The notes under the pieces: generated by a model | What the model was told of the DNA's origin: nothing | Database searches by the model: none | Seen by the model: only the letters and a program-made list of their open reading frames with translations | Shown: piece by piece, positions 3,959-60,556 of the stretch | How the letters are laid out: each line of letters opens with the position of its first letter | Numbering within the stretch: position 1 is the first letter of the stretch | Position numbers and translations under genes: made by a program | Source of the DNA: Lantana camara | Lineage: Eukaryota > Streptophyta > Magnoliopsida > Lamiales > Verbenaceae | Reading direction: 5' to 3' | Assembly (NCBI GenBank): GCA_037501455.1 | Contig: CM074856.1 | Location: forward strand, 88,920,001-88,984,000 | Length of the DNA stretch: 64,000 nucleotides

Positions 3959-5960
3959 TGTAACTCCCCGACGAGGTCATCCACGCCTATCCCGCGCTAC
4001 GGACCTAGCTTGTATATAGAATCGCTATCCATATAACCCACCCGAACCGAAGCAAGCGGTGACAAACGGACAACCTAGGTAGGCGGTACTAAACCCACAA
4101 AGCGAGTAAACAAAACACAGGTATGCGGAAGCTTAAATCAAAACATAACACGTACATAGGGTTCATTCATTCGAGACAATTAAGTGACTATCACGGTCCA
4201 ACACAAAATACCCAAAGTATGGAATGTAAAATTGGAATGTAAAATCATCCTAATGACCAAAACGGTCCAAACTAGCATAACAAAACATCATATATACTAA
4301 ATCCATAAATCCGAAACATAACATAAGCTACAAATAACAAAGTACGCTACAAGCGTAAACGAGTACAAACTAGACGACTACACAAGACTCCAAAAGACCC
4401 CGCCTAGCTCGACTCCAAAACGGAACCTGCGGACACGAAGGGTAAAGGAAGTCAGCTCAAAAGGAACCGGTGAGGAGAGGTTTTCATAAATAAATAGCAT
4501 AAGGTTCAATACGTGCTCAAAACACGACGTCCATGATCCAACTCATTTTCAAAGTAAATACAAGTTTTAGAAAATATGGATCACAAACCACATAAAACCC
4601 ACTCGGCGAGAACGAGCACTCCAACCGATCTTCCCAAACCAAGAAATCAAATCAAGCCAACCATGACACCGTTGATGATGAGGGTGTACGGCCCCCAATC
4701 ATCCATAACATAGAGAATTCGGTCCATGAAACCTAGCTCTCTACAAGAAGACTTCAACCGTGAAACCTCCTCGGAGTCTTAGTAAACTAGTCCACAGTGG
4801 GAACTTTGTATGAGGACATCCGTCGGCCGTTGCCTTCCCGGAATATCACTCACCTCCATCCCCGAGCTCACATAAGAATTCCCCAAGCAAGCGTCCTTGC
4901 AAGGTACATCATAACCTCGCTACACAACTCACACATACATAATATTCAAATGAAAGTTCTGAAATCGTTTTGGGTATCTATCCCATATACCTAACTCAAG
5001 TTTTACTTGTAAACAGTTTTCTATAAGCAAATATCCATAATACGAGCAAAGCTCACAAAACTTGGCTTATAAGCCTACATATACGTTTTGAAAACGGGAG
5101 TTAAAATCATCAAATATGATAGGCCATATGTGCCCACAGTTTTGAAAACGTTTATATATTATATAACTCCTCACCTTTACCAAGAACTTCGAAGGCCAAC
5201 CACGAGCAACAAGCTACTCGACCGCAGACTCACCACCTAATAATACAAATGTACTAACAAAGGTAAGACTCGACTCAACACCAAATAAGACGACGCACGG
5301 CTTAAAAGAATGCAAATGTACTCATTATGTGCGATGAATGTCCAAGGATAGCATAACTTAGCAATTATAATCAAATGAAGTCATACGAGTCATATAATAA
5401 GCTTTCAAGTCATAAGACATGCAAAGTTCAACATACAATTCATACTTAGCATATTCTCACACATAATCGAGGTATACAAGACATTAAAATGCACATAAAC
5501 ATGATTCCAAGTCATATATATCATACTAGTGTGTAAGAAGTGCAAAGGAAGTTAAAACGAAGCAAAACGATCAAGATCACGAAAACTCAAAATTTGGACC
5601 CGAGACCCATAGTTCATTTTGTAAACGGGCGTTTCGGCCCTGAAAATCATGACAGTAGGTTTTCACACGGGGGTTTGGTGTTTCAAAGCAATTTTCACAT
5701 GGGTGTTTGGATAGCTACTGTTGCAAATACGAATTACGAAAATATGCTTGTAAATGATGAATTTTAGGCTCTAAACACTCCTAAATCATGCTCTAAAGCT
5801 CATACCATATGAATAAATGAATTTGGACATCAAGTATCATGATATGAACATTTAAGATTGAATATGCATCAAGAAATTCAACAATTAACACATATGAACA
5901 TCATCTTCTTCAAGTATTCAAGCTCCAAGCTCATCAATGGTGAAATCTTCAATCATGCAA
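3959..5960 (-). repeat. 5' LTR of chromovirus A, upstream end truncated
   Basis: In plus coordinates the repeat begins TGTAACTCCCCG at 3959, the reverse complement of an LTR end. It holds the CTCGGCGAGAACGAGC box shared with other LTRs here (about 4612-4627) and a worn palindrome cluster (5623-5708). The outer end expected to read TGTGAC is missing. No coding signal is seen. The boundary at 5960 is approximate because it rests only on where the plus-strand integrase tail starts. Confidence 0.65.
5623..5708. repeat. Degenerate palindrome cluster in LTR A
   Basis: AAACGGGCGTTT at 5623-5634, ACACGGGGGTTT at 5665-5676 and ACATGGGTGTTT at 5697-5708. Start-to-start spacings are 42 and 32 bp, the same rhythm seen in better-kept clusters of other LTRs in this window. 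Two of the three have lost perfect symmetry. Confidence 0.5.
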
Positions 5961-5965
5961 TGTCG

Positions 5966-6432
5966 ATAATAGGAGAAGGGATCTTAAGTTTGAAGTTGGG
6001 GACCCAGTGTTCTTGAAGGCGTCTCCTCGCAAGTGATTTGCTCGGATTGGTAAAGGAGGGAAGCTTAACCCTCGATATCTAGGTCCATTTGTGATTCTTG
6101 AGAAGATCGGCGAAGTGGCTTACCTATGGGACCTACCACCGAGCCTAACCGGGATTCACAATGTCTTCCACATTTCTCAATTAAGGAAGTATTATCCCGA
6201 TGAGTCCGAGATTCTTTCCGTCAAAAATGTTGAGGAAGCTGAGTTGCAACTGGATTTAACTTTTGTCCAAAATCCGGTAAAGATTTTGGATTGCAAGTTT
6301 CAAGTGTTGAGAAACCGGCAAATCCCATTGGTAAAGGTTTTGTGGAGGAGTGATACAAGTGAGGAAGCCTTGTAGGAAACCGAGGAAAAGATGAAGAAGA
6401 TTCATCCAAAGTTATTCCCGACGGAGCAGTGA
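5966..6432 (+). pseudogene. Chromovirus B integrase C-terminus with chromodomain-like tail
   Basis: Only the last part of pol survives. It opens with NRRRDLKFEVGDPVFLKASP, the conserved integrase C-terminal region (GDxVxLKxSPxKG), reaches a stop at 6033-6035, then continues GKLNPRYLGPFVILEKIGEV and HNVFHISQLRKYYPDESEIL, and ends in a chromodomain-like segment (RQIPLVKVLWRS, then ETEEKMKKIHPKLFP after a stop at 6373-6375) with the final stop at 6430-6432. The same residues occur in element D at 16450-16905. Chromodomain tails of this group are thought to steer integration to heterochromatin. Two internal stops and a missing 5' part make it dead. Confidence 0.85.
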
Positions 6433-6450
6433 ATCTGGGGACCAGATTCT

Positions 6451-6465
6451 TTTAAGGGGGAGAGG
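6451..6465 (+). promoter_or_regulatory. Polypurine tract of chromovirus B
   Basis: TTTAAGGGGGAGAGG lies directly before the LTR start TGTGACGCCCCG at 6467. In this group the equivalent tract primes plus-strand DNA synthesis. Element D has a matching tract at 16918-16932. Confidence 0.85.
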
Positions 6466-7040
6466 TTGTGACGCCCCGTGTTTTCATCTTACAGGTACGC
6501 ACGCCACACGTGTGAGTTTTGAGAGTTAGAATTTCTTTGCATGTTTATTTGATTAATTGCTTATGTGAATTATGTGAATATGTGACTTAATTACCTATAT
6601 GAGTAACTTAATTTAATTTCTTTCATTTCATTCCATAACATATATTTCATAATTCATTCACTCATAAGCATATTATATTTTCTAATATATACTACATACT
6701 AGTATACTAATACATTCACAATATATATTTATATAATCGTATGTAACATATACATTTATATCTATTATATACGTAATATCTACCTTTCTACTTTAGACAT
6801 ATAATCTATGTATCTATATGTACATTGCATATATTACATTATATCATATATACACACTCCCACAAGAACACACACAAAATCTCTAACATACACACAACCC
6901 TTGCTCTCATTTTTTTTTCTTCATAAATACACATATTTTGATTCAAGCAAGAAGAGGAAGAAGAAATCAAGGAGTCACCGTCATCATCTTCATCACATCA
7001 TCATTTTTATTTCATTCCTCCCTTTTCCTTTAAGGTTGGC

Positions 7041-7110
<70 letters not shown>
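7041..7110. repeat. (AT)n(GT)n compound microsatellite
   Basis: About 26 bases of alternating AT followed by about 44 bases of GT with a single GC interruption, inside LTR B. Alternating GT of this length can adopt Z-DNA in vitro. No evidence of function here. Confidence 0.95.
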
Positions 7111-7441
7111 TTGAGGGCTTGATAGAAATCTTAGAATTTTGGACTTGATTCTTGTTGCTAGGCATGATTTTATATGCAAACACATGTGAATCCTTGAATT
7201 CAAACTTGTTTCCTTAGTGGTTAGGTGATATGTAAATATGGGTGTTTTTTGAGGGTTTGTATGATTGTTTTGATTAATCTAAGTGTTCAAACATGTGTTT
7301 TATGTGGTGTAATTGAAGTACGCAATGTGTTGAAGTGTTAAAACTTGATTCTTGACACTTTAGTTGTTGCTTTGTGGTGTTTGGTTTGAATCCCCAGTCC
7401 CTCCACTGTTTTTGCCCTGTTTTTGTGCCTAGGAGTGTCCC

Positions 7442-7638
7442 AAACGGCCGTTTGCGGTCCCAGTTGATTCTAGAAACGGCCGTTTGGAAGGCTACTGACT
7501 TGCTCTTCAGCGAGACTCGAAACGGCCGTTCCGGCTTCCAGTTCAAACTGGAAACCACCTTTCCGAGTGCTTTAGCTTGTTACAGCGAAGGTCCAAACGG
7601 CCGTTTGGAAACCCTTTTGAAAATTAAAACGGCCGTTT
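7442..7638. repeat. Palindrome cluster of LTR B (AAACGGCCGTTT, six positions)
   Basis: Perfect or near-perfect AAACGGCCGTTT at 7442, 7474, 7519 (imperfect), 7595 and 7627, plus a decayed member AAACCACCTTTC at 7552. Start-to-start spacings are 32, 45, 33, 43 and 32 bp, so the six form three doublets. Each palindrome carries the CGGCCG core with two CpG sites. Sequences between palindromes are not repeated. Confidence 0.8.
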
Positions 7639-8095
7639 CGGATGCTTCTGTCCTGTAATGCCCCGACTCTTCGACCGTACAAGTATAACTTATATGTTTA
7701 CGTATTTGCGCATTCTAAATATCTAACAATTTTATTATATGTTTATTTTATATGTTATTTTGTTTATTATTTGAATTAAATGAATAATTGTTATGAATTA
7801 TTTGAATTGTTGAACGAATGAACTTATATGATCTTGAATACGTGTCGTTTGCATTCGATTTGAATTCCGATTTTTGTGAAATTTTGGTATGATTGAGATG
7901 TGTGAGTTATGATCATGTTCTTATGCTTGTTACGTGATTTCGGACTTGTTTGAGTTGGTTTTGAATTTAATTTGTGTAATGGAACCAAAAAGGGGCTAAA
8001 TAGCATTTAGCGCACCTTGGGTTCCGGGTGTTATAACATGAGCTCGGAAATTAGGGGTTCTAATTAATGAGATCAGACGCACCAGGTACTAAAGG

Positions 8096-8216
8096 TAACG
8101 GGCGTTACTCCTCATCAGTTATTTTTGGTAATGCCCGTTAATGGACACAGGCGTCTTGGCCGACAGGGGTTAACGCCCGTTACCCCTTTTCTTAGGAAGA
8201 CCGGTAACGCCCGTTA
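8096..8216. repeat. Palindrome cluster of LTR C (TAACGSSCGTTA, four positions)
   Basis: TAACGGGCGTTA at 8096, TAATGCCCGTTA at 8129, TAACGCCCGTTA at 8171 and 8205. Start-to-start spacings 33, 42 and 34 bp, two doublets. The cluster sits about 100-220 bp upstream of the TATA box. Confidence 0.8.
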
Positions 8217-8310
8217 CTGGTCCGACTGGCATAAATTGGATTTTAGGTACACGTTTTTACGGTTAATCTAAGTCTTGTCCTACCCAATTTCGGTTTTCTT
8301 TCCCCCAAAC

Positions 8311-9310: not shown

Positions 9311-12237
9311 TGTGACACCCCGAGTTTCAGACCGTACAGGTATGACGTATGTGCGCGATTTACATTATTTAAATTCATATTCTTTATTCTTTTAATTCTT
9401 ATCTTATATATTTCTTATGAATTCGATTGATTCTTATTTGAATATGTATGGAATTTGCTATGGATTGATTCGTTGATGCTTAATTTGATTTCGGAATTTT
9501 TCGTTGTTTGAATATGTTGGAGAATTACGTGTTATGAACTTTCATTATGCTCGTTATATGTTTTCGAATTTATTTGTTGAGCTTTTGAATTAATTGTTAC
9601 GTTTGGAACCTAAAGGAGGTTAAAACGTTTTTAGCGCACCTTGGGTTCCAATGTGTGTATTTTGAGCTCGGGAATTCGGATTCGAATTCCGTCACCACCG
9701 TTGAACTCGTTTCGATGATTCGGGTTCGATGGACTAAGCCTCATAAACTTTTAAGCTCATTTGGTAACCCGAAATCCGACCGGAAACTTCCCTCGCTCTT
9801 ATACGACTACCTTTCACCTAATTGCACTTTGACCCCTCAATTCTTGGCATATTACCCTCAAGCTTGGCCCCACACTCCACCAAAACTCAGCATATTCATC
9901 CCTCTCCCTCTCAATATCGGTACAAGCAAGGAAAAAGGAGAAAAGGTGCAGTAACTTTGGAGCTTAACCCTTCAACCCGTCACTATTCACACCAAGGAGA
10001 ATTTGAGCTCTAAACTCCATTTTCTTCCACATTCTTCAAGGGGTAAGTTAGTATATGATATGTACATGATATTATGAGCATTTTGAGATATTTAATCCAT
10101 ACTTTGGGCTAGGTTTGGGGTATTTATGGAGCTTGGCATGTATTTTGAGGGTTTGATGATCACCTTGGTTTCATTGAGTTAAGCTTTGATTTGAAGTTAT
10201 ATATGTGATCCCTTAAGCCCTTAACATGAAAATATGGTCTTGCTTCTTAATATGGTTGAGCATGGTGGAAGTTTCCATTGATGAAATTTAAATTCTTGCA
10301 TGAGAATTCTTGAAATATATGATGATCCTTGAGCTTTTGTGATAGTTGGGAGATTATAGGATGATTATGAAGTGAATTGCTTTAGTTTGCTTGAGTTTTG
10401 GGGCTTGAGGTTGTTGCTTGTTGTTGCTGCGTGCTTGCTCTGCTTCCTTGCTCTGTTTTTGGCTCTGAAACACTGTTGCTGCTGTTATTTTTTTTCGAAG
10501 ACGAAGGGCCCACACGGCCGTGTCAGCTTTGTGCATGTTTTGGACACGGCCGTGTCAGCATCTCGACTTGGAGCAAATTATTTTTATAAAATCGGACACG
10601 GCCGTGTCCATTTTGAACTAAAACTCAACACGGCCGTGTCAGCCTCTCGAATTAAGCTCCTGAATTAATTTTAATCGGACACGGCCGTGTCCATTTTGAA
10701 CCAAAACCCAACACGGCCATGTCATTTGGAAATATGGCGGCGGCAATTGCTCGTTTGATAGCTTCGGTGTTTTTATTTGTATTTTCTTTCTTCATTTATG
10801 ACTCGTATGCAATGTTACCTTGTTATATTACGCGTTATGTGCTTTGTTTTGAACTTATGACCTTATTTTCTATGAATGGTGTGAATAAGAATTGGTAGGA
10901 TTATTGGACACGCAATTTCATTTTAATTGCATTCATAAGCATTGCCGAGCGGCTATTTGGTTCATATTTGAGTCTAAATCTCGGGTCTTGCTTTCTTTGG
11001 TGTTTCAGAGCCTCTTCCAGTCGCGCAACAACCCGAAGCTTAGGTGGTTGGTCGTCGTTTCGATCCTACCTTTTGTCTCCTTTTTGTTAAGGTGAGGTTA
11101 GGAATTAGTAGCTAATTACCCTATGACCTATAATATGATGAATTTTTCCCTTGAATGCGGATATGGTACATATATCTAGATACAAGTACTTAAATTATGT
11201 TTATGATCTTATGGAATAACTTTGGTCTCTTTGAAACGATATATGTACGAGTATATATAAGCTTGATTTTAAATCTCTTTTAGTATGTTTTGCTATGTTG
11301 AGCGAGTTTGCCCGGAAAGATGGGATTTTGGTTTGAATTTGGTTCGTGGGCCCTGGAGACGTGGGTAAGGAAGGCCCGGGGCGATCACGGGGTCGCCGGG
11401 TTTAACCCCCGTGCACGTTCTCATTTGAGATATTCACGTACGACCTAGGGAGGTTGGGAAGGCGTGATATCTTGAGCCTTCGGTGGGTAACCGGGGAAGG
11501 CATAACGTGGGTTAGCTACCCAGTATGTTTTTGGTAATGTAGGTGCTAGGGTTTGATTCCCGACATACCATGGTTGCAAGGGTGGATTTGTGATTTGATA
11601 TTTATGTTTAGAGGAGTAAGGGATAGTCCGTTCTCGTCGGGCTTTTAATTATGTTCTGACTGATGGATTATGAATCGAGATAGATGCTTTTATTATTAAA
11701 TATTAATTTCGTGAAATGGTTTTGGTGTGCAAAACTCTAGCCTCGATTCATGACTATCACTTTTGATTTGTACTATGATCTATACATATTTAAGGTGTGG
11801 GTGTGTTAAGCCCCTCACTCAGTCGAGTTGTGAGACTGACCCTCTCCTTTCCCTTTCAGGTGTGCCGAGCTAGGCGGGGAAGTGCATCGAGTCGAGTCGT
11901 ACTTAGCCGTTTAGGTCGAGTAGCATTGCATCTCTTTTGTTTTTAGCATCTTGTATGAAGTATAACCTTGGCACTTGAATTCTTATATCTATTTTGGGTT
12001 GATAAGCCATGGTATATATATTGTTACTTTTGCATGAGCTCGTTTGGATACTGTTTATTGCTTCCGCATATATGATTAGTGTTTGCGCACTCTGGTGTTG
12101 TTTAGCCCCGCTTAGCCTAGTGTGCGGGTGTAGGTCACCGTTCGCTTAGACTTGGGCTCATGTATGGAAACCCATTTCATATGTGGGTTCGGGTTTAAGT
12201 GCGGGGGGTGTGGTGGCCCACCGCTCCGGGCGTCACA
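9311..12237 (+). repeat. 5' LTR of chromovirus D (2927 bp)
   Basis: Runs from TGTGACACCCCGAG to GGGCGTCACA. In order it has the shared phrase TTTAGCGCACCTTGGGTTCC (about 9630), a C-rich presumed leader near 9890-9950, GTAAGT at 10043, a six-member palindrome cluster at 10512-10722, the GCCC-rich block at 11350-11400 and the LTR end. Such long LTRs with short U3 and long R/U5 are usual for Tekay-type elements. Transcription start not determinable by eye. Confidence 0.93.
10512..10722. repeat. Palindrome cluster of 5' LTR D (GACACGGCCGTGTC, six copies)
   Basis: ACACGGCCGTGT cores start at 10512, 10544, 10596, 10628, 10679 and 10711 (the last has CCATGT). Spacings are 32, 52, 32, 51 and 32 bp, three doublets of equal internal spacing. 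The interval between doublets is itself partly repeated, giving a period near 83 bp. The homologous cluster in the 3' LTR is at 18136-18346. Confidence 0.9.
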
Positions 12238-12259: not shown

Positions 12260-12434
12260 CTCGGTTGCAAAACCGGAGCTCTTGGGTCAAGTCTGGTGAG
12301 TCTAGGTCGTTCGGCTTAGGACAACGTGGTTATATGCATTTATATGATTATTTGTTTACTTTCTTGTTGATAGTGCACATGAACATGTATTAACCCCCAC
12401 GCATATGAATTGGAATCTTTAGTTTTGTAGAAAT

Positions 12435-13766
12435 ATGCCTCCCCGAAGACACCATCGCCGAGATAGATCTCCAGAACATCATCATCACCGAGATCATTCT
12501 CCGCACTTGGAAAACAACAATCCACCACCACCTCAAATGGATCCCGGGAATTTTATGGAAAGATTAGTGGTGTATTTGGATCAAAGAGCTCAGGAAAGGA
12601 ATAATGCACCTCCGTCCGGGAATCATGGAGGGAATGCTATCGCTGCTCTACTTCGGGAATTTAAAAATCAGAATCCACCGGTTTTCATTGGTGGGAATGA
12701 TGTGCAAGCCGAGGAGTGGCTAATCCAGACAAATCGGGTATGGCGCCTCATTCCTTGTGACCCGATGGACAAGCTACAGTGCACTCTTAGCATGATACAG
12801 GGACAGGCCTACAGTTGGTGGACTAGTACTCAGATTAAGTTGGAAGCTTCCGGGGAAGAGATTATATGGAATATCTTCGAGCAGGAATTTAAGAACAAAT
12901 ATATCCCTAAGGCTACGAGAAGCCGAAGGTTGAGGGAATTTATGGATTTGAAACAAGGGAGTATGTCTGTTACTGATTATATCAACGAGTTTGAGAGACT
13001 CTCCTGCTATGCCCCTAATATCGCTAATGACGATGAAGCGAGGGCCTCTCAGTTTCTCCAAGGACTACGGGAGGATATGAAAGATGCTTTGGAAGCAGCC
13101 AACACGAGCACGTGGGCGAAAGTAGTTGATAAGGCTCTCAGGGTCGAAGAGAGAGTGGTTTTGAGGAGGAGGACTTCACATTTAGGGTAAGGGTCCAGCT
13201 CAGGGACTTTGAATAAATTTGGAAAGAGGCCAGCCTTTCAAACTTTTCAACAGGCTAAGCCTCAGAACAAATCATTCAGACCAGCGGGACCAACTCAAGC
13301 CAAGCAACCATTAGCCCTTCCGGCTCCACCTAAAGTGCAATGTACCTATTGCAACGGCTCTCACCACGTGGATAACTACTTCAGACTCTATAAAAGGAAT
13401 TTCCTTTGTGGAGCACCGGATCATATGATGAACACGTGCCCTAAAAAGAAAGATAACCCGAGGCCTGCAATTCCAGCTAGGGCTTATGCGTTGGGAGCTG
13501 AGGAGGAGCAAGCTATAGATGTCGACCCAAACGCGGTGATCGAAGGTACTATAAGCATCCATGGCACTACATTACATGCATTATTCTATCCCGGGGCTAC
13601 TCATTCATTTATTTCCCGGGATATTGTTGCTTCCATGTGCTTGCCTGTTTCTCTATGTGCGCATAACTACGTGGTTAGTTCCCCTCTTGGTGGTAGCTTA
13701 GTATCTTGCAGGGTTTTTGGGGTTGTCCAATTAGCTTTGAAGGCCGAGTCTTTCTGGCAGATTTGA
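12435..13766 (+). pseudogene. Chromovirus D gag and protease N-terminus (stop at 13188, frameshift near 13710)
   Basis: Starts MPPRRHHRRDRSPEHHHHRD; the ATG at 12435 is chosen because I has the same MPPRR start. The His/Arg-rich head is followed by the gag core (VFIGGNDVQAEEWLIQTNRV, AYSWWTSTQIKLEASGEE, EFKNKYIPKATRSRRLREFM, SMSVTDYINEFERLSCYAPN) up to an in-frame TAA at 13188-13190. The same frame resumes with two zinc knuckles, CTYCNGSHHVDNYF and FLCGAPDHMMNTC, each missing one of its four metal ligands. The protease site reads LFYPGATHSFIS where family members have LFDPG, so the catalytic Asp is lost. The frame ends at 13766, past the point where pol continues in another frame. Confidence 0.9.
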
Positions 13767-15979
13767 TTGAGATGCCTCTGCAGAGGTATGATGTTATTTT
13801 GGGGATGGATTGGTTGTATGAGTATGGGGCTCAGATGGATTGTCGGGAGAAGAAAGTTTCCTTCGGTTCAGTGGTGTTTAAGGGCGAGAAGGTTAAGTCA
13901 AGCCCGTTTATTTCTTTCATGGAGGCTAGTAAACTGGTCCGGGACGGAGCAACAGGTTTTGTGGCCTATCTTTTGAATAGACCGATGGATCAAGCCAAAC
14001 TTGAAGAGACGGAGGTCGTGCGAGAGTATATCGATGTTTTTCCTGAGACTTTGGGTTCTCTTCTGCCTGATAGGGACATCGAGTTCGTAATTGACCTTTA
14101 TCCCGGAGCAGAGCCTTTCTCGAAGACTCTCTATAGAATGGCTCCTGCAGAGTTAAAGGAGTTAAAGTCGCAGCTTGATGAACTGTTAGCTTGCGGGTAC
14201 ATCCGTCCGAGCACTTCTCCGTGGGGTGCTCCCGTGCTATTTGTAAAGAAGAAGAATGGAACGTTACGGATGTATATAGATTACCGTGAGCTGAATCGGA
14301 TGACCGTGAAGAATAAGTATCCATTGCCTCACATCGAGGAGTTGTTTGATATTTTGCAAGGGTCTAAGGTTTATTCCAAGTTAGATTTGAGACAGGGTTA
14401 CTATCAGCTGCGGATTAGGGAGGAGGATATACCTAAGACTGGATTCAATACTCGCTATGGTCATTTTGAGTTCGTTGTGATGCCTTTTGGGTTAACTAAT
14501 GCTCCAGCCGTATTTATGGATATGGTGCACCGAGTGTTCAGGCAGTTCCTTGACAAGTTTGTGGTAATTTTCATAGATGACATTCTGGTGTATTCTAAGT
14601 CGGTTGAAGAGCACGCACAGCATCTTCGGATTGTTTTGGAAACCTTAAGGGAGCATAAGTTATATGCCAAGTTTAGCAAATGCGAGTTTTGGATCGACAG
14701 GGTCGTATTTTTGGGTCATATCATCTGGGGTAATGGAATTGAAGTGGATCCGTCTAAGATCGAATCCGTGCTTCGTTGGGAGAGACCGAGGAATGTATCA
14801 GAAATTCGGAGTTTTCTTGGATTGGCTGGTTATTATAGAAGGTTTGTTAAAGATTTTTCTAAGATTGCTGCTCCGTTGACTCAGCTGACTAAGAAAGAAG
14901 TGAAGTTTGAGTGGGATGATAAGTGTAAAGCAGGTTTTCAGAGTTTGAAAGTGAAATTGACTTCAGCACCAGTTCTCACCCTACCCGAGGGCACCGAGGG
15001 TTATGCAGTTTACACGGATGCTTCTAAGGAAGGTTTGGGTTGCGTTTTAATGCAACATGGTAGAGTGGTAGCTTATGCTTCGAGAAAATTGAAGGAGCAT
15101 GAGAAGAATTACCCTACCCATGACTTGGAATTAGCTGCCGTTGTGTTCGCTTTGATGAAGTGGCGACACTATCCCTATGGTACTACATTCGAGGTGTTCA
15201 CAGACCATCAGAGTCTCAAGTACCTCTTTTCTCAGAAGGATTTGAATGTCAGGCAGAGGCGTTGGATGGAATTACTAGAGGATTATGATTGCAAGATTCA
15301 GTACCATCCGGGCAAAGCAAACGTGGTAGCCGATGCCCTGAGTAGAAAAGGGAGTGTGGCTAATCTGGAAGTAGGTTCTTCAAGTTCGGGTTCAGAGATT
15401 TTGGCTTCAGGGACTTGGTTGGCTAACCTCACAATTATACCAGATTTGAAACAACAGTTGTTAGAAGCTCAGGCTATAGATGTTGAGATTCAGAGGTTGT
15501 TAGCTCGTTCTGGAGATGATCCGAATTCTAAGTTTGGATTGGATGACTCAGGTTTGTTAAGGTTTGGATCGAGAGTTTATGTTCCAACCGAGCTCAGGAG
15601 GTTGATTTTGGAAGAAGCACATCGCTCAGGGTACTCGATTCATCCGGGAGGTACTAAGATGTATCGAGACCTGAAAGAGAAGTTCTGGTGGAATGGCATG
15701 AAAAGGGACGTCGCGAACTTCGTGAAGCGATGTCTGACGTGTCAAAAGGTGAAGGCAGAGCACCAGAAACCGGGAGGAACTCTCCAACCACTTCCTATTC
15801 ACGAATGGAAGTGGGAGCAAGTGACAATGGACTTTGTGTCCGGCTTGCCTAGAGTCAAAGGAGGGTTTGATGGAATTTGGGTGATTATCGACAGGTTGAC
15901 TAAGTCTGCCCACTTTCTTAAGGTTCGGATGTCTGATAAGGTACCGAAACTAGCAGAGTTATATATGTGGAAATTGTAA
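13706..15979 (+). pseudogene. Chromovirus D pol: protease tail, reverse transcriptase, RNase H, integrase N-half
   Basis: A 757-residue open stretch. From the N-terminus: protease tail [14 protein letters not shown] (residues 28-41), RT from [12 protein letters not shown] (about 143), [12 protein letters not shown] with the first catalytic Asp, [26 protein letters not shown] with the catalytic pair at 14570-14581, [20 protein letters not shown], RNase H with [25 protein letters not shown] and ADALSR (all four acidic residues kept), integrase zinc finger (AHRSGYSIH to CLTC) and the first DDE Asp in [19 protein letters not shown] has Tyr where I has Cys. There is no real start codon: the stretch opens inside the protease after a frameshift from gag. 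It ends at TAA 15977 after a second frameshift near 15970. Confidence 0.93.
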
Positions 15980-16905
15980 GATTACACGGAATTCCAGTCA
16001 GTATAGTTTCGGATCGAGATCCGAGGTTCACTTCGATCTTTTGGCAGAATCTTCAGAGATGTTTGGGTACCAAGCTCAAGTTCAGCACCGCTTCGCATCC
16101 TCAGATAGACGGTCAGTCGGAGAGGTTAATCCAGTATTTGGAGGATATGCTTAGGGCTTGTGTTTTGGATTTTCAAGGTAAATGGGACGAGCATCTGGCT
16201 TTGGTTGAGTTTGCGTATAATAATAGCTATCAGGGTTCAATTGGAATCGCTCCTTATGAGGCACTCTATGGAAGGAAGTGCAAATCCACTTTATTCTGGG
16301 ATATAGAGGATTGGAGATAGACTGAGGAGCATAAACTCGAGAGAGCCGAACCTAAGGAAAATATTACTGCTACTATTGAGAAGGTTCATCAGATTAGACA
16401 GAGAATGAAAGCGGCTCAGTCTCGTCAGAAGAGTTACGCTGACAGAAGAAGAAGACCTTTACAGTTTGAGGTAGGAGATAAGGTCTTTCTAAAAGCATCT
16501 CCTAGAAAGGGTTTCACTCGGATTGGTAAAGGTGGGAAACCCAGTCCCCGATATCTTGGACCGTTTGAGATTTTGGAAAGGATTGGAAAAGCGGCGTACA
16601 GGTTGGATTTACCGCAGAATTTGACCGGGATACACAACGTGTTTCACGTTTCTCAGCTTCGTAAATATTATCCCGATGAGACCACAATTCTCCCAGTCGA
16701 AGAAGTTCAGTTAAAGCCGGATGTGACGATTGAGAAACATCCATTTGCAATTCAGGATCGAAAAATGCAAGAATTAAGAAACCGACAGATTCCTTTGGAC
16801 AGGGTACTTTGGAGAGATCAGAAATCAGAGGAATCCACCTGGGAAACTGAGGAGAAGATGAGAACTTTATATCCGGATTTGTTCGAGAACTCGGTTCGGA
16901 CTTGA
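15967..16905 (+). pseudogene. Chromovirus D pol: integrase core C-half and chromodomain-like tail
   Basis: Continues integrase in the next frame: [20 protein letters not shown] (second DDE Asp, about 16012), [13 protein letters not shown] (the Glu, about 16117), [20 protein letters not shown], a stop TAG at 16318-16320, then SRQKSYADRRRRPLQFEVGD, KVFLKASPRKGFTRIGKGGK, NVFHVSQLRKYYPDETTI and the chromodomain-like RQIPLDRVLWRDQKSEESTW ending LYPDLF near 16890 and a stop at 16903. One frame throughout, so the TAG is the only nonsense codon. Integrase would insert the cDNA; the tail would bind modified histone. All three DDE residues are readable but lie in two frames. Confidence 0.92.
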
Positions 16906-16933: not shown

Positions 16934-18908
16934 TGTGACACCCCGACTTTCAGACCGTACAGGTATGACGTATGTGCGCGATTTACATTATTTAAATTCA
17001 TATTCTTTATTCTTTTAATTCTTATCTTATATATTTCTTATGAATTCGACTGATTCTTATTTGAATATGTATGGAATTTGCTATGGATTGATTCGTTGAT
17101 GCTTGATTTGATTTCGGAATTTTTCGTTGTTTGAATATGTTGGAGAATTATGTGTTATGAACTTTGATTATGCTCGTTATATGTTTTCGAATTTATTTGT
17201 TGAGCTTTTGAATTAATTGTTACGTTTGGAACCTAAAAGGAGGTTAAAACGTTTTTAGCGCACCTTGGGTTCCAATGTGTGTATTTTGAGCTCGGGAATT
17301 GGAATTCGAATTCCGTCACCACCGTTGAACTCATTTCGATGATTCGGGTTCGATGGACTAAGCCTCATAACCTTTTAAGCTCATTTGGTAACCCGAAATC
17401 CGCCTGGAAACTTCCCTCGCTCTTATACGACTACCTTTCACCCAATTGCACTTTGACCCCTCAATTCTTGACATATTACCCTCAAGCTTGGCCCCACACT
17501 CCACAAAAACTCAGCATATTCATCCCTCTACCTCTCAATATCGGTACAAGCAAGGAAAAAGGAGAAAAGGTGCAGCAACTTTGGAGCTTAACCCTTCAAC
17601 CCGTCACTATTCACACCAAGGATAATTTGAGCTCTAAACTCCATATTCTTCCACCTTCTTCAAGGGGTAAGTTAGTATATGATATGTACATGATATTATG
17701 AGCATTTTGAGCTATTTAATCCATACTTTGGGCTAGGTTTGGGGTATTTATGGAGCTTGGCATGTATTTTGAGGGTTTGATGATCACCTTGGTTTCATTG
17801 AGTTAAGCTTTGATTTGAAGTTATATATGTGATCCCTTAAGCCCTTAACATGAAAATATGGCCTTGCTTCTGAATATGGTTGAGCATGGTGGAAGTTGCC
17901 ATTGATGAAATTTAAATTCTTGCATGAGAATTCTTGAAATATATGATGATTCTTGAGCTTTTGTGATAGTTAGGAGATTATAGGATGATTACGAAGTGAA
18001 TTGCTTTGGTTTGCTTGAGTTTTGGGGCTTGAGGTTGTTGCTTGTTGTTGCTGCGTGCTTGCTCTGCTTCCTTGCTCTGTTTTTGGAGCTGAAACACTGT
18101 TGCTGCTGTTACTTTTTTTCGAAGACGAAGGGCCAACATGGCCGTGTCAGCTTTGTGCATGTTTTGGACACGGCCGTGTCAGCCTCTCGACTTGGAGCAA
18201 ATTATTTTTATAAAATCGGACATGGCCGTGTCCATTTTGAACTAAAACTCAACACGGCCGTGTCAGCCTCTCGAATTAAGCTCCTGAATTAATTTTAATC
18301 GGACACGGCCGTGTCCATTTTGAACTAAAACCCAACACGGCCGTGTCATTTGGAAATATGGCGGAGGCAATTTCTCGTTTGATTGCTTCGGTGTTTTTAT
18401 TTGTATTTTCTTTCTTCATTTATGACTCGTATGCAATGTTAGCTTGTTATATTACGCGTTATGTGCTTAGTTTTGAACTTATGACCTTATTTTCTATGAA
18501 TGGTGTGAATAAGAATTTGTAGGATTATTGGACACGCAATTTCATTTTAATTGCATTCATAAGCATTGCCGAGCGTCTATTTGGTTCATATTTGAGTCTA
18601 AGTCTCGGGTCTTGCTTTCTTTGATGTTTCAGAGCCTCTTCCAGTCGCACAAGAACCCGAAGCTTAGGTGGTTGGTCGCCGTTTCGATCCTACCTTTTGT
18701 CTCATTTTTGTTAAGGTGATGATAGGAATTAGTAGCTAATTACCCTATGACCTATAATATGATGAATTTTTCCCTTGAATGCGGATATGGTACATAAATC
18801 TAGATACGAGTGCTTAAATTATGTTTATGATCTTATGGAATAACTTTGGTCTCTTGGAAACGATATATGTACGAGTATGTGTGGTGGCCCACCCCTCCGA
18901 GCGTCAAA
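16934..18908 (+). repeat. 3' LTR of chromovirus D (1975 bp, internal deletion)
   Basis: Starts TGTGACACCCCGAC and ends GAGCGTCAAA, the last bases being a worn TCACA. It follows the 5' LTR closely until ACGAGTAT at about 18879, then jumps to GTGTGGTGGCCC, which corresponds to 12208 in the 5' LTR. The 953 bp between are missing. The TSD TGTGG follows at 18909. Confidence 0.93.
18136..18346. repeat. Palindrome cluster of 3' LTR D (six copies)
   Basis: Same six positions and spacing as the 5' LTR cluster. Members 1 and 3 carry ATGG for ACGG (18136 and about 18220), while the 5' LTR has the change in member 6, in its right arm (CCATGT). All three are C-to-T or G-to-A changes at CpG, as expected from deamination of methylated cytosine. 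Confidence 0.85.
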
Positions 18909-18913
18909 TGTGG

Positions 18914-21227: not shown

Positions 21228-21391
21228 TGTTGTGCGTAAAAATTCCATGATTTTAAGCCTGAAATAGATTATATTCTGGTGTCGTTTGATGCGTTTATGT
21301 GTTTATTTGACTATGTTCAGGTGCTAATAGAGTTGGAGTTACGAAACGGCAAAGCAGAGCGGTTTCACGCATTTTTTTTGAGAAAAAGTGG

Positions 21392-21600
21392 TAACTCCCT
21401 TTACCATTTAGCAGTACACAAGGAGTAAATCCCGTTACTGGCCACAGAAGGATAGGTTTTGGGGAGAACGGAGGGGTAACGCCCGTTACCCCTATATAGA
21501 AGAAAATTGGTAACGTCCGTTACCAGTAAAAGCGTTATGGCGATTTCTGGTCATTAACGGGCGTTAACCGGAGCAAGGCAAATATAGGTAATGCCCGTTA
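21392..21600. repeat. Palindrome cluster of Athila LTR U1 (TAACGSSCGTTA, six positions)
   Basis: Starts at 21392, 21426, 21477, 21511, 21555 and 21589; spacings 34, 51, 34, 44 and 34 bp. The two leftmost members are imperfect (TAACTCCCTTTA, TAAATCCCGTTA). The cluster ends about 30 bp before the TATA box. The same cluster lies at 26151-26359 (U2) and 30915-31123 (U3), where member 3 reads TCACGCCCGTTA. Confidence 0.85.
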
Positions 21601-21630
21601 CCTAGGGCGGTGAGAAATCTCCTAGGGCTG

Positions 21631-21720
21631 CTATATATGTGCGTTTTGGAGACTTTAGAGAGAGAACAATAGGAGGAGGAGGAGGTTCGCAGAGAGAGAA
21701 AAAGAGAGAGTTAGACAGAG
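21631..21720 (+). promoter_or_regulatory. Athila LTR promoter: TATA box and GA-rich leader
   Basis: CTATATATGTGCG at 21631 is followed about 30 bp later by GAGAGAGAACAATAGGAGG and further GAGA repeats. Position and composition fit a plant TATA promoter with a GA-rich 5' leader. Kept in all five units (26390, 31154, 35900, and inverted near 46688). Confidence 0.65.
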
Positions 21721-41921: not shown

Positions 41922-41936
41922 TCCCCCACTTAAGGA

Positions 41937-47895: not shown

Positions 47896-48366
47896 TGCAA
47901 CAGCCCGAATACCCGCCTGTCGATATTGTCTGCTTTGGTGGGCTAAGCGACACGACCCTCACGGTTTTGTTCCTCCCAATGGCTAAGATCACCATCCAGG
48001 AAAAGGTCTCAACAAGGGAAAGGTATCCACCCCTTTATGAAGGAGGCTTTGTTCCCCTCTCCAACCGATGTGGGATAAGCACCTTAGGCTATTATAGTCC
48101 ACCCCCCTAAGAGGGCCCAGCGTCCTCGCTGGCACACCGGCCCGGGCCCCGGCTCTGATACCATTTGTAACAACCCGAAAACCCGCCTGTCGATATTGTC
48201 CGCTTTGGTGGGCTAAGCGACACCACCCTCACGGTTTTGTTCCTCCCAATGGCTAAGATCACCATCCGGGAAAAGGCCTCAACAAGGGAAAGGTATCCAC
48301 CCCCTTATAAAGGAGGCTTTGTTCCCCTCTCCAACCAATGTGGGATAAGCACCTTAGGCTATTACA
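47896..48366 (-). mobile_element. TRIM element 2 (471 bp, two 201-bp LTRs)
   Basis: LTR copies at 47896-48096 and 48166-48366, with a 69-bp internal region holding PBS TGGTATCAGAGCC on the minus strand (48163-48151), the CCAGCG-TCCT-CGCTGG hairpin and a G-rich PPT. The LTR sequence is a clearly different subfamily from TRIM 1 (GCCTGTCGATATTGTC versus TCCTGTGAATATTGTC), and the outer terminus reads TGCAACA where the partner has TGTAACA. Flanks are ATTAG and CCTCG, no TSD. Confidence 0.83.
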
Positions 48367-48721
48367 CCTCGAGAGAGGGTAAATCAAATATAAGTGACTA
48401 GGTTGTAGAATTACACTTGTCAAACGAGTATCACCTCAACTCTTGATTGTATGATTCAAAGCTTTTTCCCCTGCCTGTTTAGTTTATTGAGTTAATTCAT
48501 ATGTTAAGTTGTTAATTGCAATTTTAATTTAGTTATTTGTTAATTTCTGCATCAGTAGATTAATAGAAATAATCATTACTTCCGTTAAGTCTTTAGATTA
48601 GAGAGAAATAGAGAGTAGTGATTGATTTCCCTTCCCTGTGGGTTCGATCCTATTGTGCTACGCGTATGTTAGTGTACACCTGCACGATTGGTTTTTAACT
48701 GTAGTAAAATCCGTTACAACA
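48367..48721 (+). repeat. Athila LTR of unit U5, final part in normal orientation
   Basis: CCTCGAGAGAGGG to CCGTTACAACA, continuing the LTR from the point where the inverted block ends. Confidence 0.88.
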
Positions 48722-51103
48722 ATGTTCTCAAAAGTATAACATATACTAAGTAAAGAAATCCTAACTTGATTCACAATCCATCGAACAATACATAAACAAA
48801 TGTCCGGTGAGAACGAACCTCCCCCTTACTCCTTAAAATATAACATAAAACTGAAATCAAAAATCAAGTCCAACCCCAACAACCTTGGTGTTCGGGAATC
48901 AAACCCTCTCTATCTACTTACTTATGTACAAGGGGTAGCTAACCCACAATATACTCGGAGCATCACGTCTCATCAACCTCCAAGAATCGCGCGTAATACT
49001 ACGAATGGGAATCATGCACATGCTTAACCCGGTGGCCCTTTCCGTCCCGGGCGTCCTTACCCATAATTCCTGAGGCCCAAGATACCTTACCAATACAAAA
49101 TCCCATCTTTCGAGGTGTACTCGCGCATACATAACATAACATAAATGAATTAAAATGTAAACTTACATATACTTATACTTGTACCAATTTCATAAACTTT
49201 AAACTTATTCACAAGATTATAACATATCTTAAACACACATATTTAACTATATATGATATATAGTCGCATACGGGGTGAGAAATCAACACATATTAGGCCA
49301 TAGGTCACTTAACTGGAATAAAAGAATCCTAAACCTCACCTTGTAACAAAAGGGTAGAAACCGGGGCCAAAACCGAGCAAGAACACCTAGACCTCGGGCT
49401 CGTGGATGTCCGGAAGAGGCTCTGAAACAAAAGAATACAAGACCCAAGACTTAGACTCAATTATGAAATAAATAGATGCCCGGCAATGCAAATGAATGAA
49501 ATGAATGCATATGAAATGCATATCCTTAGCACTTAAAGCATATCAGATCAAATCTTATTCAAATCATATCAATTGTTTCCAAGAATCGACTACAATCAAG
49601 TTAACACGTATTTTAACATATTAGTTGCAAGTAGGGATCAAATATGAGACAAGAGATCACGAAACAAACTAACGGAAAACAAAAACAAAATAAAACTCAA
49701 GGGAAACAAGGAAGGGTAACGGGGGTTACTCCTTTGCAGAACAAAAGAGGTAACTCCCGTTACCAGAGGCAGAAGCCTCGCCTCCAAAACACCAACATAG
49801 GGTAACGGGCGTTACCCTAGCAAGAACAAACTGGGGTAACGCCCAGTGGCTCAAAACTTCACACAAGAAGAAGGGTAACGGGCGTTACCCTCACCAAGCC
49901 ACCAAGAAGTAACGGGCTTTAACAACCCCAGGCCTCCAAAACCTGTAAATTCCTCCCCTGCTTCAACGAAGCAAACAACCACAACAACAAAGGCAAGCAA
50001 GGAACACCAAAACCAAGCTAGAAATGAAGCAAGCATACATATAACACTCAAGACTTAATCAACCTTCATATATTCATACATATCATCAAGAAATCCATAC
50101 AAGAATCCAACTTTCAAGCTCCGACTCCAAATTCATAAATGAATAGATCAATCTAGCTCAACTACCATGGAACTAATCAAATAAATGCATTAAATGAACT
50201 CCTTAGATCAACATGTAAGCTTTATAATTGCAAGAATTCAATAAATGATCAAGAAGACCGAAATCCCTAAACCCTTCCTACTCAAGTGGTATACCAAATT
50301 CATGAAATTCCTAACTTAGAACATGAATCATATGGAGAATAAGATGTACAAAACCATGGAGAGTCCAAATATATTCTTACCTTGAACAAAAGGAGCAAGA
50401 AAAGCTTGGGACTTGAGCTCAAGGTGATCAACAATGGAGGGATGAACCTGGAGCTTCTCTTCCCTACCTTTTCTCCCTCTGGTTCCAAATGTTCAGCAAA
50501 GAAGAGAGATATGGTTGATTTCTTTGAGGCTTAAAAGTCAAGGATAGGTTCTCATAGCTCACAAGTGGGGTCTTAGGTGCGGTATATGTACGTAGGGTCA
50601 AAATCTACATCGTTGGGGGTCAAAATGGCATCAAAAAAGTACAAGGCTTGTTCCATTGTTTCGGAATCGTTGATTCAAGTACAATGGCAAAGATAGAAAT
50701 TGAATCCGAGTTCTCGAGCTTAAGTTACGAAAAAATGACTCAAGGCTGGCCAAATTGCAAATTGGCCCAAAAGTTTGAAATTAAATCAATTGACTGCAAA
50801 CCAATTCAAACGAGTCCAAAACATACATAAATCGTACAATTAAGTCCAAGAAACATATAATTCACGTTATACACAAATTACGAAGCTCGATTCAAGTTCC
50901 AATTCTCAAATCATAAGAATTCAAGTCAAACGTGTAAGTAGAGCAAACTCGTATCGAAATTCTCACATAATTCGTATAAGAAATGAATAAAGGAATATAA
51001 ATCAAATGAAATGCATCAAATAGTATGAAAAATAAATGTAAATACGAAAATTAAACTCATACGTGGTACCAACCTGTACGTGCGAGCAGAAGGGGGTGTC
51101 ACA
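48722..51103 (-). repeat. Chromovirus LTR H, longest copy
   Basis: On the minus strand it starts TGTGACACCCCCTTCTGC at 51103, has a purine-rich presumed leader followed by donor-like AAGGTAAGAATAT (GT at 50380), a six-member palindrome cluster (49717-49921) and the GGCCC/CGTCC boxes, then is cut by the Athila LTR end at 48721. In U1-U4 only its first 683 bases from the Athila side are kept, which shows that the array was made from this locus. Short ORFs across it have no domain. Confidence 0.8.
49717..49921. repeat. Palindrome cluster of LTR H (TAACGGGCGTTA, six positions)
   Basis: Starts at 49717, 49751, 49803, 49837, 49876 and 49910; spacings 34, 52, 34, 39 and 34 bp. Members 3 and 5 are perfect TAACGGGCGTTA; member 4 has lost its right arm (TAACGCCCAGTG). 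The palindrome is the same as in LTR C and the Athila LTR, although the intervening bases differ. Confidence 0.85.

Positions 51104-57770: not shown

Positions 57771-57806
<36 letters not shown>
57771..57806. repeat. (GA)n microsatellite
   Basis: Eighteen AG units at the 5' side of LTR J, on the minus strand (CT)n just downstream of where the leader would lie. LTR G has a shorter GAGA tract at the matching place (45437-45456). Confidence 0.95.
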
Positions 57807-57808
<2 letters not shown>

Positions 57809-58252: not shown

Positions 58253-58840
58253 TGTAACATCCCGATCGTTCGGATTTCCAGGTACGCCGTATCGAGAGGG
58301 TTATATGCACTTTAAATTATTTACTTACGTAATTGAGTGTTATTTTAATGCTTATTTGATTATTTGAAATTATATGAAATTAATTGTTTATATTATGAAC
58401 TTTGAATTTTAAAGGATTAAGTTTGCATGCTCGTAATATGCTCGTTATGTGCCGGAATTCAATTCCAATTTTCGTGAAATTTTTATATGTATGATATATG
58501 TGAGTTATGAATATGTTTACATTCTCGTTTTAAGTTTTAGTGTTCGTTTGTCGAGGTTTTAAACCTTATGTATTTGACAAGGGACATGAGGGCCTAACTA
58601 GTTTTAGCGCGCCTCGTGTTTCGGAGACCATAACTTGAGCTCGGGAATTCGGATTCGAATTCCGAAAGATGTGTTGGACTCGTAACGAAGAAAGGAAACT
58701 TTTGAACCTGCTTTGGTATTTTTATAAACCCATTTGGACCCCCGTTTTTCACCCGGAACGAGCAGCTTGTGTTAAAGCCACCTTCTTTGACTAGTCTTAC
58801 TTTTGTGGGCCCAAACTAACCATACCTAAGCCTTAACCTT

Positions 58841-59025
58841 GGTTTATATGACCTTGATTCATCCCTCTCTCTCCCTTATCAGCAGCATTTCGAACCACAC
58901 ACCCAAGAGAGAAGGAAAAGCTGCTGCAATGGAGAAAAAGAAGAGAAGAAAGAAGACCCCTTTCTCTTGCTTTATGATTTTTGAAGCAAATCTTCTCCAT
59001 ACTTCTTCATATATTAAAGGTAAGT
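58841..59025 (+). promoter_or_regulatory. LTR K promoter, leader and 5' splice-site-like sequence
   Basis: GGTTTATATGACC TATA-like box at 58841, CCCTCTCTCTCCC leader, then TTAAAGGTAAGTATATT with GTAAGT at 59020-59025. The acceptor candidate is TTTTATTTCAG ending 62599, just upstream of the gag remnant. Confidence 0.5.
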
Positions 59026-59285
59026 ATATTTGTGTATTCCCCTCTCTTTTATGTATCTTTTGATCCATGAAATCCATGTTTTAATTCAGATTTAATAAGG
59101 GTATGGAAGCTTGCATGAATAGTTAGGGTTAGCTCATATTTTGAATCCATGTCTTAGCTTGAGTTTAGGGCTGATTTCATGCATCTTTGGTGATTATATG
59201 AGCTTCTTTGCTTCCATTCTTGATCTATACTTCATGCTAGATGTGTTAGGGTTAATTCTCCATTGATAACATGAATGAAAGCTTG

Positions 59286-60070
59286 AGTTTTTGGGCATGA
59301 AACTGGAAATTCGAACTGCTGCAAAACTGCTCATTTATTACCGAACTGTTGTCACGTTTTTTAGATCAAATGATTGAATTCTTGCCTCCAATTTCGTGTG
59401 ATAATGCTTGGTTATGTAATATACATGTTGTTCTATGAATGTGCTTCGTTTCGCCCTGATTTCATGCTTTATTTTGGCTGCAAACTTGAGTTCTTGGACT
59501 TTAAAAACTGCTGCGAATCTGCTCCTTTCTCACCAAGTTGCTGTCATGTTTTTTAGGTTTGCTTGATGGATTCTTGCATCCAATTTCGTGTATTAATGCA
59601 TGGTTATGTGTCACACACGTTACTCTATGAATATGTTCTGTTTTGCCTTGATTTCATGCTTCATTTCAGCCTCAAACGTGAGAATATGCTCTGCTCTTCC
59701 TGGTTTGAAGTGCTGTCAGAATTTTGGTCCGTTTGATGACTTCTTGAACTGCATTTCATGTGAAATTGCATGTACATGAAGTATATGAGTTGTTCTACAT
59801 GTTATCTAAGTGTTTACAAGCTTTCATCCCCTGTTTTAGCCCCAGACTTGAAGAGTATGACCTGCTGCATTCCTTCCTTCTTTGTGACAGATTTGGTGCA
59901 TGAGTTTTGAGTTGCTTGCTGCTACTTTTTAAGGCATGAATTGCTAATGTTTTCGTGTGTATTTCATGCATGATATGTGTGTGTTTGAGGCCTAAGAAAT
60001 CCCTCCAAGAGCTGATGCAAACTGCCCTGTTTTGCCCTGATTTCATGCCCATTTTCAGCTACGTATGTGA
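59286..60070. repeat. Four-copy diverged tandem repeat of about 193 bp in LTR K
   Basis: The phrases TCCAATTTCGTGT (59384, 59577) and TTTTGCCYTGATTTCATGC (59449, 59641, 60030) recur at 192-194 bp or twice that. The third copy is shortened around 59830, where only GTTTTAGCCCCAGACTTGA is left. Each copy also has a GAACTGCTGC..CTGCTC-like core. Divergence between copies is well above 15 percent. Confidence 0.8.
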
Positions 60071-60426
60071 GCTTGAACGTGACTTAATTTCTTTCCTTCC
60101 TTGCAACGTTTAATGTGGCTGTTTTGATGCTCAAAAGCTGATCATATGAACTTGCTTTGCTTCCTTTTTGATACATGATACTTGGTAGATGGGTTATGGA
60201 TGAATTCTCCTTGAAACCATTTGATGAATTTGTTTGAGCATGAATATATGATGCATCTCTTCCCTCTCCTCACTTTAGCTTCGGTTCTTGCATGAATTAG
60301 AGCATAAACCTTTGAATCTTTGATGCATATATCTCGTATATTGTGTTGGTTTGATGTTAGCATGGTTTGGTTTTGGTTCTTGGTGAGTTTGAGGGCTAAA
60401 AACCGAGTTTTGGTCACTGGAAGCGG

Positions 60427-60556
60427 ATCCACGGGCGTGGATTTTTGGTTTTACCAAATCCATGACCACTGATAGGAGGCCAGCAGCAGGGGACGTTTCT
60501 GTCCCCAGATCCACGGCCGTGGATCTCCTCTTTTGAAAATATCCACGGCCCTAGAT
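60427..60556. repeat. Palindrome cluster of LTR K (ATCCACGGCCGTGGAT, four positions)
   Basis: ATCCACGGGCGTGGAT at 60427, ATCCATGACCACTGAT at 60458 (worn), ATCCACGGCCGTGGAT at 60509 (perfect, 16 bp) and ATCCACGGCCCTAGAT at 60541. Spacings 31, 51 and 32 bp, two doublets. Confidence 0.8.

Follow-up and report, generated by a model that had tools for sequence, protein, structure and literature searches.

Repeated cis-acting boxes are a familiar feature of long terminal repeats (LTRs), with enhancers repeated in tandem in retroviral U3 and with stress boxes in plant LTRs such as those of Tnt1. Here we describe clusters of short CG-centred palindromes, set in a strict rhythm of doublets, in LTR sequences of Lantana camara; they were examined in a stretch of 64,000 nucleotides (contig CM074856.1, positions 88,920,001 to 88,984,000 of the forward strand; hereafter the window), part of a 1.27-Gb assembly (GCA_037501455.1), and in further samples of the same genome. 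A preliminary description, made from the letters of the window alone, knew of no named system with this layout, but a close one exists. Bousios et al. 2010 (PMC2829016), whose abstract describes a comparison of Ty1/copia elements, report palindromic repeated motifs (RM) in the LTRs of 13 Sirevirus elements, 12 of them with a CGG-CCG core; in the accessible parts of that paper the words vary by element, are CpG-rich and cluster in the LTR upstream of the TATA box, no common binding factor was found, the symmetry of Tnt1 box I is mentioned, and no doublet rhythm is described. Elsewhere, in the available portions of two further papers, Sirevirus palindromes are called small-RNA hotspots and cis-regulatory (PMC5311732, PMC10760457).

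The L. camara arrays resemble these boxes in being built of a palindromic dyad motif repeated within the LTR, clustered, CpG-rich and with words particular to the element, and in one group of clusters (U, below) they likewise lie upstream of a TATA box. They differ in that they reside in Ty3/gypsy elements, have a CG-NN-CG centre and variants of it, comprise three to eight sites per cluster, and follow strict doublets of 31-34 bp joined by loose steps of 37-67 bp, and in that no TATAWA lies within 160 bp downstream of clusters D, H, K and B. The CGG-CCG core recurs as CGGCCG in the AAAC, GAAC, ACAC and CCAC words; GTAAC words hold CGCCCG or CGGGCG, and some families have CCCC or CGGG centres. 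The host element D is of Ty3 type, not a Ty1/copia Sirevirus, and the array appears to be a Ty3/gypsy equivalent of the Sirevirus boxes and not one of them. With retroviral U3 enhancers and Tnt1 boxes the arrays share repeated cis boxes grown by tandem duplication, but here a palindrome doublet step is fixed across families with different words. A further comparison is with the VANC21 and VANC6 arrays of VANDAL transposons, which, in the accessible part of PMC5735166, consist of a short family-specific motif in many noncoding copies that change together via tandem repeats. Family-specific arrays changing by tandem repeats are found here too, but VANDALs are DNA transposons with an encoded reader, and the VANC21 motifs point one way and do not form dyads.

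In the literature searched, from which subscription papers were mostly absent, no report of the doublet step or of such arrays in Ty3/gypsy LTRs was found among the matches listed, and a literal search for the palindrome words gave no plant LTR paper by title among the matches listed. The top match for Tekay plus palindrome (PMC6911290) deals, in its available part, with insertion sites, and the accessible text of PMC11656987 does not contain 'palindrom'. Two features, the Ty3/gypsy home and the strict doublet step, were not found in print, with the Sirevirus RM boxes as the closest known system.

The core common to the families in the window is the ten-base MACGSSCGTK. It occurs 36 times in exact form, each time within one of the clusters listed below (cluster A holds a single exact copy), against a mean of 0.26 and a maximum of 2 in 200 dinucleotide shuffles; neighbouring cores less than 60 bp apart number 14, and none occurred in these shuffles. 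A word-independent finder (12-mers with at least 5/6 arm pairs, three or more similar ones within 170 bp) recovered six clusters from the window, whereas 60 shuffles contained none; it missed A, H and K, which have fewer or more worn sites. Scans for perfect palindromes and for CGSSCG recovered the clusters where the preliminary description had placed them, and its words, positions and rhythm stand with small corrections. Its statement that the centre is always CGSSCG does not, given the exceptions AACTCCCGTT and AACGGGGGTT in U and H, and CACCCCCGTG and CACCGGGGTG elsewhere in the genome. The clusters are as follows, with steps given as distances in bp between dyad centres.

5620..5712, minus strand: cluster A, with three worn palindromes (steps 42,32); a minus-strand Tekay-type LTR fragment (5338-3989) lies about 290 bp downstream of it
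7442..7640, plus strand: cluster B, AAACGGCCGTTT, steps 32,46,32,43,32
8096..8217, plus strand: cluster C, GTAACGSSCGTTAC, steps 33,42,34; 31 bp past a Tekay-type LTR start fragment (7654-8065)
10512..10723, plus strand: cluster D in the 5' LTR of element D, ACACGGCCGTGT, steps 32,52,32,51,32
18136..18347, plus strand: cluster D in the 3' LTR, second copy of the D array
21392..21604, plus strand: cluster U1, GTAACGSSCGTTAC, steps 34,51,34,44,34; TATATATG starts 28 bp downstream
26151..26363, plus strand: cluster U2, in the second unit of a 4.76-kb tandem array
30915..31127, plus strand: cluster U3, in the same 4.76-kb tandem array
35642..35874, plus strand: cluster U4, a 5-bp insertion stretching the last step from 34 to 39
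46717..47010, minus strand: inverted copy of the U cluster, one doublet duplicated in tandem (78 bp), the duplication ending within palindromes
49711..49927, minus strand: cluster H, GTAACGGGCGTTAC, steps 34,52,34,39,34 in plus coordinates; ends 40 bp before a block common with D
60427..60559, plus strand: cluster K, ATCCACGGSCGTGGAT, steps 31,51,32; of its four sites two are worn, and the last is at 60544

The fourth site of B is heavily worn, with 4 of 12 bases off the word, and cluster C is closer to U than to D.

The arrays extend well beyond the window. We examined an unselected sample of 20 stretches of 10 kb (200 kb in all, at round coordinates on two contigs) and a selected sample of 20 stretches of 3 kb picked by presence of AAACGGCCGTTT, a word found at 936 places in the assembly compared with 228 for its reverse. 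In the unselected sample the word-independent finder returned 18 clusters in 12 of the 20 stretches and none in ten shuffled sets. A CG-NN-CG centre is present in 15 of the 18, spread over 10 stretches, so that 15 per 200 kb (two LTRs of one element counting twice, here and in the pair and step counts below) makes this a common array in the sampled part of the genome. Further words came to light there (GAACGGCCGTTC, TCGCGSSCGCGA and ACCCGGCCGGGK), and looser finders add ATCCACC..GGTGGAT as well as an LTR family in which GACAC..GTGTC occurs together with GCCAC..GTGGC, giving at least seven arm words when AAAC, ACAC and GTAAC are counted. Similar ACACGGGCGTGT-rich repeats are known from other plants such as cotton.

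Spacing was measured in the same 200 kb by searching for sites with perfect 6-bp arms around a G+C-rich four-base centre, words being free to differ between sites. There are 80 such sites, against 12.2 per shuffled set. At distances of 11-46 bp they form 14 pairs, all of them 32-34 bp apart (10 pairs if the LTR pairs of L096, L106, L109 and L114 count once), and a further 22 pairs are scattered between 47 and 130 bp; five shuffled sets gave no pair up to 130 bp. With one arm mismatch allowed, the 31-34 bp bin holds 35 pairs against 1.2 expected and the 27-30 bp bin 15, of which 13 belong to a tandem repeat, AGAGACGGGGTTCTCT. Consecutive steps of at most 70 bp (n=62) fall at 31-34 bp in 37 cases, at 24-30 bp in 4 and at 37-67 bp in 21. 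Within a family the short step is nearly fixed: mostly 32 for AAAC, GAAC and ACAC (a few 30, 31 or 33), 33 for TCGC, 34 for GTAAC (33 once, in C) and for GACAC/GCCAC, 31-32 for ATCCAC and 31 for TACCC. As all 14 perfect-arm pairs lie at 32-34 bp, the doublet step is common to at least seven arm words. The claim that geometry is kept while bases change therefore holds and extends to unselected parts of the genome, and the spacing comparison with shuffled sequence that had been proposed as a check yields the 32-34 bp peak in the genome sample and no shuffled pairs. The feature is real and geometrically strict. LTRs diverge fast, which hides shared regulatory logic, and a geometry that outlives its own sequence across so many words provides a handle on it.

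The same cannot be said of the long steps, which are loose and show no helical phase (R=0.22 at 10.5 bp and P about 0.35 for 21 unselected steps). In the window their phasing with the helix was borderline (P 0.05-0.11 depending on the range assumed), but it is absent in this larger sample and was rejected. The suggestion that all sites face one side of the DNA is thus supported by the doublet step alone, and not by the unphased long steps.

In which elements do the arrays reside? The LTRs and the one element coding region that bear on this question are:

6466..7653, plus strand: LTR carrying cluster B, similar to the D LTR; its start follows a polypurine stretch, and it is interrupted by the next LTR start at 7654
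9311..12236, plus strand: 5' LTR of element D; the 5-bp target duplication is TGTGG (9306-9310 and 18909-18913)
12423..16905, plus strand: gag-pol region of element D, with gag, aspartic protease, reverse transcriptase, RNase H, integrase zinc domain and SH3_Tf2-1
16934..18908, plus strand: 3' LTR of element D; about 0.95 kb is deleted internally, past the cluster
48355..51103, minus strand: LTR carrying cluster H, lower end approximate
58254..62378, plus strand: LTR carrying cluster K, ends approximate

Element D carries Ty3_capsid gag, RVP_2, reverse transcriptase, RNase H, integrase zinc and SH3_Tf2-1 domains, which identify it as Ty3/gypsy; its gag-pol order with an SH3-type integrase end is that of Tekay/Del, and we take it to be of this type. 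No Pfam chromodomain match was obtained at the integrase end, where the sequence after SH3 presumably resembles a chromodomain. Its 3' LTR is shorter than its 5' LTR by about 0.95 kb, yet both ends and the target duplication are intact. Among the sampled loci, L106 has a Ty3_capsid gag, L096 a gag resembling that of D weakly (1.5e-7, no Pfam match), and others a pol or gag similar to D.

A profile built from the D and H LTRs maps the LTRs of H (minus strand), K and, weakly, B, the LTR start before C, the minus-strand fragment beside A, and truncated LTRs. Cluster A lies just upstream of this fragment, near the expected place. The D and H LTRs are similar before and after the cluster, and in each of them the cluster is followed after 40 bp by the same BLAST block, despite different words (ACAC in D, GTAAC in H). 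In BLAST comparisons of 1.4 kb around each cluster, joined by single linkage, 14 of the 15 unselected CG-centred clusters connect with the D and H LTRs, and the remaining one (L097) is a copy of U; on sequence similarity, 14 of 15 are tied to one Ty3/gypsy LTR lineage. The profile spans the cluster itself in only four of the 15 (L100, L101 and two in L115), so for the other 11 it is related surrounding sequence that is demonstrated, and not the same place in the LTR. Thirteen LTRs from the window and the unselected sample, not chosen by word and including two same-element pairs (D and L114), have homology covering or flanking the cluster position; the finder detects a 31-34 bp doublet in 11 of them, where shuffles predict 0.68. 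In K, one of the two exceptions, worn doublets stand at 31 and 32; in the other, L102, CG centres are 33 bp apart. All 11 position-matched LTRs among the word-selected loci have the doublet as well, but these loci were chosen for it (22/24 combined). Two further LTR fragments, X (43531-41943) and Y (56017-54005), lack a cluster and are uninformative on its presence, since their homology begins past the cluster position.

How the sites are read can be approached through their symmetry: a site read by itself should show changes mirrored within the site, whereas a hairpin should show them mirrored between neighbours. Flank positions 7-10 match within sites in the window above a family-wise permutation of arms (P=0.0012 for 35 sites, P=0.014 for 23 non-redundant ones), with the limit that this and all other symmetry and covariation P values ignore shared descent. 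Across 114 sites in 49 clusters, selected loci and a few chance pairs included, P is 0.011 for offsets 7-10, 0.069 for offsets 7-8 and 0.044 for offsets 9-12. Dyad symmetry reaches past the core with bases specific to the site, and one LTR carries AGACAC..GTGTCT next to AGCCAC..GTGGCT, each of them symmetric. As to compensatory change between arms, another of the checks proposed, the complementarity of a site's own flanks was above permutation for the first site of the doublet (43/45 permutable doublets, P=0.0002), but not for the second (P=0.14).

Conservation was assessed in 22 sequences (21 AAAC-word loci and cluster B), which were aligned, with the selecting word masked, in two similarity groups of nine and four, leaving out the other nine. 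The nine-LTR group has eight sites at steps of 32,45,32,43,32,43,32, and identity is 0.776 in sites, 0.669 in spacers and 0.723 and 0.730 in the flanks, although the sites hold CpGs. Hybrid sites with one AAAC half and one ACAC half (CAAAC..GTGTG) occur in this group and likely mark a path from one word to another. The spacers of doublets are equal in length and unlike in sequence. The statement that sequences between palindromes mostly differ within a cluster needs correction for D, where sites 4-6 duplicate sites 2-4 in tandem (102 columns, 83%). Together with the 78-bp doublet duplication in the inverted U copy, whose breakpoints lie within palindromes, this indicates that arrays grow by doublets, while the last step of U4, now 39, indicates that old copies can lose the step.

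We consider it probable, at roughly 0.6, that the clusters are cis-regulatory arrays in LTRs read by a dimeric DNA-binding factor. Each palindrome would be the binding site of a homodimer, with a half-site that is mostly SCGTK outward from the dyad and with its other bases set by the element family. Two sites 31-34 bp apart, or about three helical turns, would form the working unit, placing two dimers on the same face where they could touch, and two to four such units would be joined by loose spacers. The array would grow and be renewed by tandem duplication of doublets with breakpoints inside identical palindromes, and selection in transposing copies would maintain dyads and doublet step; the factor may act in control of LTR transcription. 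A dimeric or tetrameric host factor had been among the roles first proposed, and of these it best fits the site-level dyads and the fixed three-turn doublet. In U1 and U4, TATATATG starts 28 bp past the last palindrome, and all five U copies show this TATA motif when aligned; by eye, CATAAA(A/T) lies 13-31 bp downstream in two GAAC-family LTRs (L096 and L101) and in C.

Several observations weigh against this reading. TATAWA or TATATAT occurs within 160 bp downstream of only four of 16 clusters (U1 and U4 at 28, A at 100 and L100 at 112) and is missing over that distance from the other 12, among them D, H, K and B, so any promoter position in D, H and K is at most putative. Within the four-LTR group, identity in sites (0.847) exceeds that in spacers (0.813) and in one flank (0.774) but falls below that in the downstream flank (0.873), and in both alignments columns were taken as sites when the word was recognisable in half or more of the aligned LTRs, a definition that favours conserved columns. 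Several offset ranges were tried in the symmetry test, with offsets 7-8 alone falling short. No reader protein is known for the array words, nor does any single motif fit them all, as the TCGCG and ACCCG words break CGTK. Finally, with 14 of 15 clusters in one web of similarity, part of the regular rhythm reflects shared ancestry and duplication and not independent origin.

A more far-reaching version, which we regard as doubtful though worth stating, is that CG-centred dyads in fixed three-turn doublets are read by a single dimeric factor, or family of factors, of ancient origin in plants, and that Sireviruses and Ty3/gypsy elements kept or regained the arrays while families drifted to their own outer bases via hybrid half-sites. 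If true, the array would be a general switch of plant LTR retrotransposons whose reader has so far been missed. The geometry suggests uses: probes of 46-50 bp for capture of the reader, a rule for annotating LTRs and perhaps for placing promoters, and a way to test whether host or element controls the drift of words.

A different arrangement, in which each word has its own fast-evolving reader, encoded by the element or by a diversifying host family, would make the clusters family-specific docking arrays serving anti-silencing or self-recognition. The words are indeed family-specific yet largely common to the sites of one LTR, and arrays shift by tandem duplication, as described for VANC motifs in the accessible part of PMC5735166. 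We nevertheless think this unlikely: between the LTRs of D there is no plus-strand open reading frame (ORF) of at least 150 aa beyond gag-pol (smaller ORFs, and a 154-aa stop-to-stop ORF within the 3' LTR at 17237-17701, were not examined), the hybrid sites within one LTR suit one tolerant reader better, and the VANC21 motif (YAGTATTAY) is, in that same text, arrayed in a single orientation, whereas the palindromes here are dyads.

Less likely again is a role at the RNA level, with transcript palindromes forming hairpins or kissing dimers that serve packaging, dimerisation or the production of small RNAs by the host. All copies within one LTR are able to pair, and the Sirevirus palindrome regions are small-RNA hotspots in the portions available of the two papers cited above. 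The flanks of prospective hairpin partners, on the other hand, show no excess complementarity in the 43/45 permutable doublets (outer arms P=0.21, inner arms P=0.67), and folding of six clusters on both strands gave inconsistent partners, doublets pairing in K and part of H but hardly in B, C or U. A 20-nt loop does not require a strict step of 31-34 bp, and the U cluster lies upstream of its TATA box. Mirroring within sites but not between partners, together with inconsistent folding, argues for dyads and not for doublet hairpins, so the hairpins between neighbouring palindromes proposed in the preliminary description are not supported.

We give still lower odds to the clusters being CpG-methylation sensors or boundary marks, symmetric CG sites kept for a readable methylation state. 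In element orientation, the 500 bp upstream of the B, D (5' LTR) and H clusters hold 0-3 CpG per 250 bp compared with 9-16 in the clusters, and CpG is near expectation inside D and B and lower (0.63) in H. This contrast is weak in K and missing in C and U, however, and some families retain the dyad without a CG pair (CACCCCCGTG). Moreover, three of the five cluster differences between the two LTRs of D are CpG transitions, which indicates that these CpGs decay in place. The CpG-poor stretches before B, D and H have an excess of TG/CA.

Least probable of all is a mutational by-product, minisatellite slippage and template switching creating and renewing palindromes without selection, for although duplication breakpoints lie within palindromes and D is partly a tandem duplicate, doublet spacers share length and not sequence, sites change less than spacers in the nine LTRs (subject to the definition of site columns), and the arrays hold the same position in divergent LTRs.

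Viral contigs yielded no relative in a pol search and no match to two palindrome patterns, and 67 viral-contig stretches with CACGGSCGTG pairs, mostly G+C-rich phage-like DNA among the matches listed, were taken as chance, though not tested singly. Plant-like Ty3/gypsy pol was detected in four bacteria-labelled assemblies (L001, L002, L003 and L004), where it is probably contamination; CGSSCG is absent from the stretches of L001-L003.

The U clusters belong to a 4.76-kb tandem repeat, about four units of which fill 18909-37361 (and 9062-9310 before the D insertion), with one U cluster each; every unit also has a minus-strand Tekay-type LTR fragment (22383-23433 and copies) adjoining a gag-like ORF. 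The Athila label first given to this unit was not confirmed by any tool: the search for an Athila gag gave no Pfam match at E 10 and none of 2127 word-sharing candidates at E 1e-3. A segment of the array unit recurs in inverted orientation at 45931-47895, flanked by two TRIM-like elements (41468-41927 and 47896-48364) that have direct repeats of 200 bp and a primer-binding-like site, an exact minus-strand TGGTATCAGAGC.

Two other short-period repeats were seen in the genome sample. The repeat AGAGACGGGGTTCTCT, an imperfect palindrome with steps of 27-32 bp, is unrelated to the CG-centred words and occurs in L101 (9816-9893), L103 (5970), L105 (3490-3563), L106 (6886-7000), L096 (5970 and 9550) and L109 (4694). 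In L113 (452-528), TGACACGTGGCA is repeated at steps of 24, 28 and 24, forming a G-box-like palindrome array with a step of its own.

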